From: Candidatus Bathyarchaeota archaeon
GTDB taxonomy: Archaea; Thermoproteota; Bathyarchaeia; Bathyarchaeales; Bathycorpusculaceae
DNA: 46,808 bases
Direction: 5' to 3'
NCBI GenBank assembly: GCA_016927895.1
Contig: JAFGLT010000033.1
Location: 1 to 46,808 of the forward strand
The notes beneath the pieces were generated by a model. The model searched no databases. It was not told the DNA's origin and was given only the letters and a program-made list of their open reading frames with translations. Positions 33,661 through 38,272 of this stretch are shown in pieces. The stretch's first letter is position 1, and each line of letters begins with the position of its first letter. A program made the translations under genes and the position numbers.

Positions 33661-34110
33661 AGCTGCACTGCCTAATCCTCAAGATAAACATTAAAATTTT
33701 TTGCACATATACACGCATGTTTTAGAAAAAACTGAACAAGACCACGTTCAAGGTCTCACCCTTTATATAAGACATAGGTAAACTCCGCAAGCAGGAAACA
33801 CCACACCAGCATATTTGCCGTCTATTAGGCTTCTAATAGTGCATGTATGCAGAAAAATATTGAGGGAATCTACTCGCATTGGCTGTTTTCAACGTCAATA
33901 GCATGTTGAAAAAACTAGGCGCGTATATTTGGTGCCAATTAGTAATTGTATGCAGAAAACGGGGAGGGGGTCTACCTGAAGTCGTTTCTATTGAGGCGGC
34001 ATAGCACCCCTTTAGATACGGGGCGTATTGTCTTACTTTTTTCAGCAAGTGGCCTTATTTTGTTGAAAATATGGTTGCCTGAAAAAGTGGTGAACCGAAG
34101 GGAGAAGCTG
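33661..34110. other. 450-bp gene-free stretch with repeated motifs
   Basis: No convincing gene is present. CTTTATATAAG at 33761-33771 is a strong TATA-like box. AGACATAGGTAAAC (33770-33783) is identical to a 14-mer at 36167-36180 and one base from another at 36769-36782. TGTATGCAGAAAA followed by GAGGG...TCTAC occurs near 33842 and again near 33945. A 64-codon frame (33946-34140) lacks a ribosome site and overlaps a converging gene. A promoter for an unseen RNA, or remnants of a mobile element, are possible. Confidence 0.4.
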
Positions 34111-36035: not shown

Positions 36036-36133
36036 GACGTGGTGATTTGTTGCGAATTTTTGTCTATAACCCCCTTTATATAGTAACTGTTTAAAGGAAA
36101 CGGTTGTTCTAAAGGGGGCAGCCTTTGGGGGGT

Positions 36134-36242
36134 GAAAGCACAGGTATTCTTCAACTCATACCCTATAGACATAGGTAAACATAAAACAAGCGCTTGTCAA
36201 TATTTTTTGAGTCAAGAAATTCTTACAAGAACGCTTTTACAG
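36134..36242 (+). repeat. duplicated leader element, copy A
   Basis: This element lies upstream of the DUF5752-like gene. It aligns with 36733-36865 over GAAAGCAC(A/G)GGTATT, ACTCA, AGA(C/T)ATAGGTAAACATAAA, GCTTGTCAA, AGTCAAGAAA and AACGCTTTTACAG. ACAAGCGCTTGT inside it is a perfect 12-bp palindrome. A 14-base core also occurs at 33770. It is read through by a long frame, but the ribosome site and TTG start at 36333 show that the true gene begins later, so this segment is non-coding leader. Confidence 0.7.
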
Positions 36243-36332
36243 TTGAAGCTAATTGGTATTAGTTGGTGCTGTTATGAGGAGAAAGGCATAGCGCACCAAT
36301 ATCGTTTCAAAAGTTATTTGGGAGGAATTGTA

Positions 36333-36689
36333 TTGTCTAAAAGAGAAACAGTTTTTAGAAAAGTTGTTAATAAGACGCTTGCTTCACAGATTCTGAGAAC
36401 AGTTCATAATCATGAAGGTTTTTGGTTTTGCAGGGCTCCAGGAGAATATACAGGAAAGAACGCCATGAGCCTAAACGAATTTGCAAAAACGCTACAGGTG
36501 ATAGAAGTTCAGTCAGTAGATTTTCATTTTAGTCGGGGAGACTTCCGCAGATGGATACAGTTTATTCTTGGTGATGTTGCCCTTTCGTCTAGAATAAATA
36601 GGATTCCTCAGGATACACGAGGCGAGCAACTCAGAAGCGCCCTAATCAAAACTGTTAACGAACGGATTATTGAGCTGAAAAAGATTTAG
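36333..36689 (+). CDS. DUF5752-like protein
   Basis: The 118 residues begin at TTG 36333, with GGGAGGAA about 6 bases before. The upstream in-frame stretch from 36132 has coding-unlike sequence, falls in the repeated leader, and is left out. The body GFWFCRAPGEYTGKNAMSLNEFAKTLQVIEVQSVDFHFSRGDFRRWI is typical of the archaeal DUF5752 family: a small alpha/beta domain with a conserved Arg-Gly-Asp-Phe and Trp. Function is not known. The C-terminus (TVNERIIELKK) is helical. Confidence 0.75.
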   Translation: MSKRETVFRKVVNKTLASQILRTVHNHEGFWFCRAPGEYTGKNAMSLNEFAKTLQVIEVQSVDFHFSRGDFRRWIQFILGDVALSSRINRIPQDTRGEQLRSALIKTVNERIIELKKI

Positions 36690-36732
36690 CATATTTGCAA
36701 ATTGCAGTACGCACAGGTTTCTGATCTGCCAA

Positions 36733-36865
36733 GAAAGCACGGGTATTATACTTTAACTCACACTCTACAGATATAGGTAAACATAAACACGTGTGCTTGT
36801 CAAGTAAGCTTGACTAACGCTGTTTCTGATTAAGTCAAGAAACTTTGACAAAAACGCTTTTACAG
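36733..36865 (+). repeat. duplicated leader element, copy B
   Basis: This second copy starts 43 bp after the DUF5752-like gene and ends 36 bp before the beta-helix gene start at 36902. Compared with copy A it has an extra segment of about 24 bases in the middle, which contains GTCAAG-TAAG-CTTGAC, a 6-bp stem with a 4-base loop. Ends and core are conserved (ATAGGTAAACATAAA, ACGCTTTTACAG). It is outside any supported gene and probably acts as promoter or leader RNA. Confidence 0.7.
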
Positions 36866-36901
36866 CATAAGCAGCCAATGTTAATCGTGGAATATAAAGC
36901 A

Positions 36902-38272
36902 ATGAACGATTTGGTGCTCATAAAAAGAAAAGCATCAGCGCTAACGGTTATCCTTGTAGTCCTGTGTTCACTAGCAGTTCTAAGTTGTAACATAACAATG
37001 GCAAATGCCTCCTTCCACATCGCCCAAGACGGTCACGTCGCTGGCACCGACAAGATACGCCGTAACGGCGACGTATACACTTTCACTGGTAATATTGATA
37101 TGGATATTAGGGTAGAAAAAAGCAACATCATAATTGATGGAGCAGGCTTCAAACTCGTAAAAGGTGGGTGTGCAGGAAACTGGGGGATTAAGTTTTCGTT
37201 CGATGTGCACGATGTCACCATTAAAAACTTAATAATAACTGGTTTTGGCTGCGGTATTTCGATGACGGGTTCAGGCAACACAGTGACTGGATGCACAATA
37301 ATAGACTGTTATACGGGCATTTTGCTAGAAGGAGCCAATGATAATACTATCACGGATAACAAATTTGTAAACACCAGCATTCGCTTCGATGATTCATCAA
37401 ACAATAGACTTAGGAATAACAAGCTTGAAAACGCTGGGATAGGCACTTCGTGGCAAAATATTTACAACGATGTTGATACTTCAAATACAATTGACGGAAA
37501 ACCAGTATATTACTTGGTAAATCAGCATGATTTAGTTATAAGTCCAGTTAATTATCCGGAAATCGGCTGCCTTATCTTAATAGGTTGTACAGGCATAACA
37601 ATTAAAGATATAGCCTTCTCCATCCAAACCACAAATGGCGGGGTTACTATAACGTATACAAGTGACTCAATGGTAATCAACAATACTTTCACCGACCTTT
37701 GGCGAGGCATAACAATCTATGACTGTAGCGATATGACGGTTTTGGGTAATTTTATCGTGAACAATGAAATAGGAATCGCCATCCATGGGCAAAGCCATGC
37801 GCACAACTCACGCATCAATATAACAAGAAATCATATTGAAAATAACGAGATGGGCATTTCTCTTATGGGGTCAGACCTAAACATCTATCACAACAACTTC
37901 ATTAATAATACACAGCACGCTTATGATACGATATGGCACCCATTGAACTTTGTCAATGCTGTTACGTATGTCTGGGATGATGGCAAGCAAGGCAACTTTT
38001 GGAGTGACCATAACACCACCGATGCTGACGACGACGGCGTTGCCGACACACCCTACGTAATCAATAAACGGGGGAACAACACTGATCGATATCCGCTTAT
38101 GGAACCTGTTCAAATAGAAGTTAATCTTCCTGTAGAGCCAGAACCTACGCCTTCTCCGGCAGAACCCAATTACGGTGCAGAGCTACTTCAACTTATCGCC
38201 GCTGCCTCAGTTGCCTCAATTGCCATAACTACCATAGCCTTAATCATCTACTTCAAGAAACGCAAACAATAA
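36902..38272 (+). CDS. NosD-like beta-helix surface protein (second copy)
   Basis: The protein has 456 residues from ATG 36902, chosen because it directly precedes a signal anchor (MNDLVLIKRKASALTVILVV, to about 32). TTG 36845 lies in the repeated leader. The start of the mature part, ASFHIAQDGHVAGTDKI, parallels the other beta-helix protein, as does RVEKSNIIIDGAG. Beta-helix coils follow (about 70-370). A Pro/Glu-rich linker (PVEPEPTPSPAEP) leads to a C-terminal membrane helix and KKRKQ. An N-terminal region and fold are shared with 1161-2750, but the anchor differs in type. Confidence 0.8.
   Translation: MNDLVLIKRKASALTVILVVLCSLAVLSCNITMANASFHIAQDGHVAGTDKIRRNGDVYTFTGNIDMDIRVEKSNIIIDGAGFKLVKGGCAGNWGIKFSFDVHDVTIKNLIITGFGCGISMTGSGNTVTGCTIIDCYTGILLEGANDNTITDNKFVNTSIRFDDSSNNRLRNNKLENAGIGTSWQNIYNDVDTSNTIDGKPVYYLVNQHDLVISPVNYPEIGCLILIGCTGITIKDIAFSIQTTNGGVTITYTSDSMVINNTFTDLWRGITIYDCSDMTVLGNFIVNNEIGIAIHGQSHAHNSRINITRNHIENNEMGISLMGSDLNIYHNNFINNTQHAYDTIWHPLNFVNAVTYVWDDGKQGNFWSDHNTTDADDDGVADTPYVINKRGNNTDRYPLMEPVQIEVNLPVEPEPTPSPAEPNYGAELLQLIAAASVASIAITTIALIIYFKKRKQ

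Follow-up and report, generated by a model that had tools for sequence, protein, structure and literature searches.

Two similar non-coding segments at positions 36134-36242 (copy A) and 36733-36865 (copy B) are copies of a promoter module that is dispersed through this Bathyarchaeia genome and its relatives. They lie within the window, the whole 46,808-nucleotide stretch that was analysed. The module is almost certainly a DNA operator that defines a regulon of exported proteins, and a membrane-anchored HTH protein that occurs in the same genera is, judged from its sequence and distribution, probably the regulator. The window is contig C31 of an archaeal genome of 1.69 Mb in 119 contigs (assembly 93% complete), which was compared with a class-wide survey set of 257 genomes from 109 genera, including 163 genomes of the order; genera, families, genomes and loci are given anonymous labels beginning with g, f, G and L, respectively. 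Bathyarchaeia are abundant in anoxic sediments and are thought to use buried organic matter, including protein. Scanning for GTCAAGAAACYTTGAYAAAAACNCTTT across named genomes gave 22 places, all of them in Bathyarchaeota or Crenarchaeota MAGs.

Anatomy and Copy Number of the Module

A preliminary description of this DNA had aligned copies A and B along their length, and the alignment holds: the 5' half agrees at 82% across 71 bp, the 3' half at 88% across 33 bp, and a gap of ~20 bp falls at the position of copy B's longer operator spacing. The 14-mer it had singled out stands unchanged at 33770 and 36167 and with one mismatch at 36769; genome-wide it occurs in 11 places at ≤1 mismatch vs. 0 for the reversed control. 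An 801-bp stretch gave 28 significant BLAST matches within its own genome, and 201 bp around copy B matched five relatives (G001, G002, G003, G015, and G036), so the outcome on which the proposal was to be dropped, no further copies and no conservation in relatives, did not arise.

Alignment of all copies resolved three parts: an optional upstream half, the palindromes, and a TATA-like element. The upstream half, module A (AAAAAGCATAGGTATTATACTTTAACTCATACTCTACAGACATAGGTAAACATAAAC, 55 bp), contains CATAGGTA twice, ~34 bp apart, and is a lineage-limited addition holding the 14-mer, with about 18 copies in genera g1 and g14 only; its direct repeats are probably the pair of sites of a second protein. 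The palindrome core is 16 bp long, GTCAAG-N4-CTTGAC, with one to three per module, usually in tandem. Directly 3' of the proximal palindrome stands a fixed BRE/TATA-like element, AAAAANNCTTTTA, followed by the start codon ~30 nt further; its consensus is AAAAACgCTTTTA in 42 copies from g1, g2, and g14 and AAAAAccCTTTT in 29 copies from g33. We infer that this element is the core promoter, and general archaeal promoter geometry would place the transcription start ~26 bp past its centre, ~10 nt before the start codon.

All of the features that follow are on the plus strand. In copy B, module A (36733..36788) carries the imperfect direct repeats CACGGGTA and TATAGGTA, ~34 bp apart, with the 14-mer variant inside. 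The distal palindrome GTCAAGTAAGCTTGAC (36799..36814), earlier noted as a small stem-loop, lies 35 bp from the proximal palindrome GTCAAGAAACTTTGAC (36834..36849), which adjoins the BRE/TATA-like element AAAAACGCTTTTACAG (36850..36865). Copy A comprises module A (36134..36185, with the exact 14-mer at 36167-36180), a decayed palindrome pair, GTCAATATTTTTTGA-GTCAAGAAATTCTTAC (36196..36226), of a 15-bp-spacing type also found in L018, L024, L027, and L050, and the TATA-like element AAGAACGCTTTTACAG (36227..36242), which has the same form in L018 and L024. A different palindrome reported for copy A, ACAAGCGCTTGT, is missing from the other copies, and we rejected it as a feature of the module.

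The recurrence at 33770 is real for the 14 bases; because the match is limited to these and the other parts are absent, the site is probably a bare 14-mer and not a module copy. Within window positions 33765-33800, CTTTATATAAGACATAGGTAAACTCCGCAAG at 33770 also resembles CTTATANAACAAAGGTAAnTTCCGCTAAATC, which precedes module A by ~60 bp in L040, L043, and L050, with the common pattern CTTATA..ACAAAGGTAA.TTCCGC; this element may be a third module, the remnant of a coding 3' end, or chance. A second dispersed intergenic repeat, GGGTAGACCCCC..GTTTTCTGCAT..ACTATTAG-N-CCTAATAGG..CAAATATGC, has its own inverted repeat (CTATTAG/CTAATAG) and about 25 matches in the genome, directly upstream of GTCAAG palindromes, alone, or in tandem; its places include window 33800-33985 (-) and 13162 (+) and loci L023, L025, L027, L031, L090, L091, and L092.

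The palindrome itself is strongly over-represented in its own genome, at 91 places with ≤2 mismatches vs. 6 for the reversed pattern, and 59 vs. 0 at ≤1 mismatch. Across the class, tandem palindromes were found in 34 of the 257 genomes and eight of the 109 genera, with one control match in all genomes combined.

Genes Downstream of the Module

The two different genes of the preliminary description are too narrow a frame for what is instead a regulon of exported proteins. Signal-peptide-like N-termini were called by a simple hydropathy rule on the ORF within 150 bp of each site cluster. Such an ORF followed 25 of the 27 assignable clusters in the window's own genome, compared with 42/135 other ORFs of the same stretches; the corresponding figures were 16/17 vs. 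23/102 in the g1, g2, and g14 relatives and 34/38 vs. 34/108 in g33 (p from 2e-8 to 3e-10 across the three sets, background 22-31%). Excluded from these fractions were 3, 6, and 3 clusters, respectively, without an assignable gene, mostly at contig ends or in broken frames. The contrast is conservative, since the background is itself rich in surface genes.

Copy B precedes an exported NosD-type beta-helix surface protein (gene B, 36902..38272, +; Pfam NosD 8e-25) with an N-terminal hydrophobic segment and a C-terminal membrane anchor, for which we prefer the start at 36902 over the in-frame ATG at 36878. Inspection of other N-termini by eye added kelch- and SBBP-repeat-like proteins. Many regulon proteins have in common a C-terminal domain of ~110 residues while the remainder differs (L009-L012, L014, L037, L071), and those of L016 and L042 have only the C-terminal tail in common; we regard these exported proteins as a mosaic surface-protein family. 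Given the common domain, gene duplication may explain part of the promoter similarity.

Copy A lacks an exported-protein gene after its promoter. It is followed by a five-codon stub, ATGAGGAGAAAGGCATAG (36274..36291, +), apparently what is left of the start of an exported-protein gene (it resembles MKRKALAL in L021), and then by a DUF5752-like ORF (36333..36689, +) that matches only the C-terminal half of its family (PF19027, 1e-6, profile positions 99-207 of 208). We agree with the earlier observation that the usual start at 36132 hides the module as coding; a TTG at 36333 after GGAGG, giving 118 aa, is the likelier start. In our reading, copy A is a promoter that has decayed or been put to another use.

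A Membrane-Anchored Candidate Regulator

The lead to this candidate was L070, where a palindrome pair stands in front of an HTH-protein gene; the complete relative G046 has the same protein as the "Candidatus Bathyarchaeum" record CP070820. The candidate consists of an ArsR/HTH_20 winged helix (HTH_20/HTH_5 at residues 7-47; Pfam HTH_5 1e-8 to 8e-8), one TM segment (seen in the orthologues inspected as a hydrophobic helix at ~residues 90-110), and an outer domain of ~280 residues. In its AlphaFold model (pLDDT 74.6, with a poor TM linker), Foldseek placed the wHTH near the ArsR-type proteins YodB, Rv0081, and CzrA (TM 0.65-0.74), so the domain is of the ArsR winged-helix type by both sequence and fold. 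The outer domain matched YpeB and PepSY-FTP (PDB 5boi and 3nqz; 9e-7 and 2e-4) at 9-14% identity; curated Pfam PepSY gave no hit in the candidate at E up to 0.1, and the likeness is one of predicted fold only. Those known domains belong to germination proteins and protease propeptides and not to DNA-binding proteins.

Of the 163 genomes of the order, 54 have a full-length orthologue, and the rest of the 257 class genomes have none; the orthologues fall in genera g1, g2, g10, g12, g14, g19, g33, and g38, and weaker matches in other genera cover one domain. Exactly these eight genera have tandem palindromes; the other 101 have none. The candidate is present in 32 of the 34 tandem-bearing genomes (Fisher 5e-24, uncorrected for phylogeny) and, where single sites number five or more, in 40 of 42 genomes; of the 109 genomes that lack it, 107 have fewer than five such sites. 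One family accounts for seven of the eight genera; because genera share ancestry, these p-values are inflated, the separate family of g33 (f6) notwithstanding. Within family f1, genomes with at least two regulator paralogues have more sites.

Perfect palindromes lie upstream of seven of 27 regulator orthologues, compared with about 1% expected at the genome frequency. L066 encodes an exported protein with the regulator's outer domain and is itself preceded by the motif, so feedback would be possible. No palindrome precedes the regulator copy of the window's own genome (C71), and this assembly, 93% complete, yielded no example of the closest paralogue type. In another 22 genomes an orthologue is present and perfect tandem palindromes are absent; most of these genomes have one paralogue only, of other subtypes. 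Further relatives of the candidate were also observed: a frame in another f6 genus (G052:C1:1075844-1076167) is 76% identical to its HTH part, with 176 aa and no outer domain, and in g33 (L161-L164) two additional paralogues keep the HTH and have different, shorter membrane or outer parts, some with palindrome-like sites upstream.

Two other proteins beside the motif were set aside. The earliest candidate was a 132-aa HTH region belonging to a Bathyarchaeia protein of ~750 aa (N-terminal winged helix, DUF7347) that is divergent from the motif in L117 and L126. It is near-universal regardless of the motif (35 of the 37 genomes scanned), which makes it a negative control. A DtxR-like protein in L123 was discarded because a divergent exported-protein gene explains that site.

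The same operator and regulon could instead be served by a different, soluble transcription factor, with the membrane HTH protein merely co-occurring or being one of the targets. Correlation and promoter sites are what tie the membrane protein to the operator, and targets would be motif-preceded too; moreover, five motif-poor genomes (g12 and g19) retain it. Against this stand the exact genus match (8/109), a wHTH helix region that is invariant in five aligned orthologues from two families, and the near-universality of the one other HTH candidate profiled. We consider a soluble factor improbable, and take the membrane-anchored protein to be the probable regulator.

Dispersal of the Module and Its Action as DNA

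The preliminary description had also offered a small mobile element and a regulatory RNA. A mobile promoter, spread by transposition or recombination and carrying its activity with it, would fit the identity of up to 83% over 127 bp before partly unrelated genes, which suggests that promoter pieces were duplicated, as well as the fact that in L045 and L037 module A begins within a neighbouring gene or at its end, and the stranding of copy A without an exported-protein gene. However, alignments of the flanks revealed no inverted or terminal repeats and no target duplications, many downstream genes are paralogues with a common C-terminal domain that could have been copied together with their promoters, and conservation of the palindrome core reaches across families, much further than recent spread would account for. 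A mobile element is not needed, and we think it quite unlikely.

The arrangement of the palindromes bears on whether they act as DNA. Neighbour distances at the fetched loci of three lineage sets are 15, 25, 32-36, and 43-45 bp, with no others between 9 and 120, and their phase has a resultant length of 0.84 at period 10; a scan permitting any spacing from 24 to 46 gave 24-25, 33-35, and 43-46 among the matches listed. One-turn steps are a requirement for proteins sharing one DNA face and are unneeded by RNA, so this spacing argues for the former. In g33 the proximal palindrome is mostly inverted (GTCAAGGTTTCTTGAC), with the symmetric core, the distances, and AAAAANNCTTTT kept. The test for compensatory changes proposed in the preliminary description found, in base-pair counts, no double changes in the arms of 42 and 27 proximal palindromes (69 in all); where an arm departs from the palindrome, the change lies on one side and breaks or weakens the pair. 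Given this lack of compensation in the arms and the inversion of the proximal palindrome in a second family, we interpret the element as a DNA operator. A structured leader RNA (riboswitch-like or acting by antitermination) in the 5' UTR of surface-protein genes is hardly credible and was rejected as an RNA family: the palindromes can pair, with folding z-scores of -1.7 to -2.5, but an Rfam search of the module was empty, covariation is missing, spacing follows the helix turn, and the TATA-like element and predicted transcription start lie downstream of the palindromes. The preliminary description's remaining option, an operator, is the one backed by the helically phased palindromes, their fixed abutment on the TATA-like element, and the class of gene downstream.

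Proposed Mechanism and Comparison with Known Systems

We propose that in several Bathyarchaeia genera the module exerts transcriptional control over a regulon whose products are exported and surface-anchored proteins. The winged-helix regulator would sit as dimers on the palindromes at about -45 and -80, all on one side of the helix, and would bring TBP/TFB to a TATA box that is weak by itself. From the position of the sites, activation appears likelier than repression. The regulator would be a one-component protein anchored in the membrane by one TM helix, with its ArsR/HTH_20 wHTH in the cytoplasm and the PepSY/YpeB-like domain outside, a picture with strong correlative support; it may sense something extracellular and adjust the secretome and its own expression. 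That the signal is peptides or proteases is rather doubtful. We hold with good confidence the whole explanation, which joins a phased-operator regulon, winged-helix activation, and a membrane one-component regulator as predicted from sequence. The fullest version is conceivable at somewhat less than an even chance: that this single-pass protein directly runs a secretome-wide regulon from the membrane through phased tandem operators, senses peptides or proteases, and is fed back on by secreted sensor-domain proteins.

The closest parallel is with ArnR and ArnR1 of Sulfolobus acidocaldarius, membrane-bound one-component HTH regulators of surface-structure genes, where flaB requires both of two 15-bp inverted repeats between -43 and -84 (PMC6396743). 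As there, two inverted-repeat boxes of 15-16 bp lie directly upstream of the BRE/TATA, and the candidate regulator is predicted to be membrane-bound. Differences lie in the box (TCGAC-N5-GTCGA vs. GTCAAG-N4-CTTGAC here), in the protein (N-terminal HTH, HAMP, sensor, and two C-terminal TM helices vs. one TM at ~residue 100 and an outside C-terminal domain here), and in the number of targets (few vs. dozens here). By analogy, the Bathyarchaeia arrangement may work like ArnR, whereas the candidate does not appear to be an ArnR/ArnR1 family member. The predicted combination of a DNA-binding domain and a TM region in one chain is that of TTRs, described as widespread in bacteria and archaea, with single-pass proteins the commonest form; a term search of that survey's main text gave no mention of Bathyarchaeia, and no regulon or operator linked to a similar protein was seen there (PMC10269533). 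Thermococcus TrmBL4 is likewise an archaeal regulator tied to many secreted proteins, but it belongs to the sugar-sensing TrmB family, its sites are of the TACT-N3-AGTA type, and for many of those secreted proteins no site was found upstream (PMC10667668). The open-access literature searched yielded no description of this regulon and no work on the regulation of export in Bathyarchaeia.

Implications

Within the set of genomes examined, the motif can serve to annotate exported proteins and to correct start codons, as at window position 36132. The palindrome predicts an exported-protein regulon from sequence and, with a named candidate regulator, makes an in vitro test possible without culturing. 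Standing in front of dozens of exported-protein genes, the module would, if the proposal is true, be among the broadest such switches proposed in archaea, and, should the membrane-anchored protein be its regulator, membrane-bound transcription factors in archaea would be extended from pili and archaella to the whole secretome.
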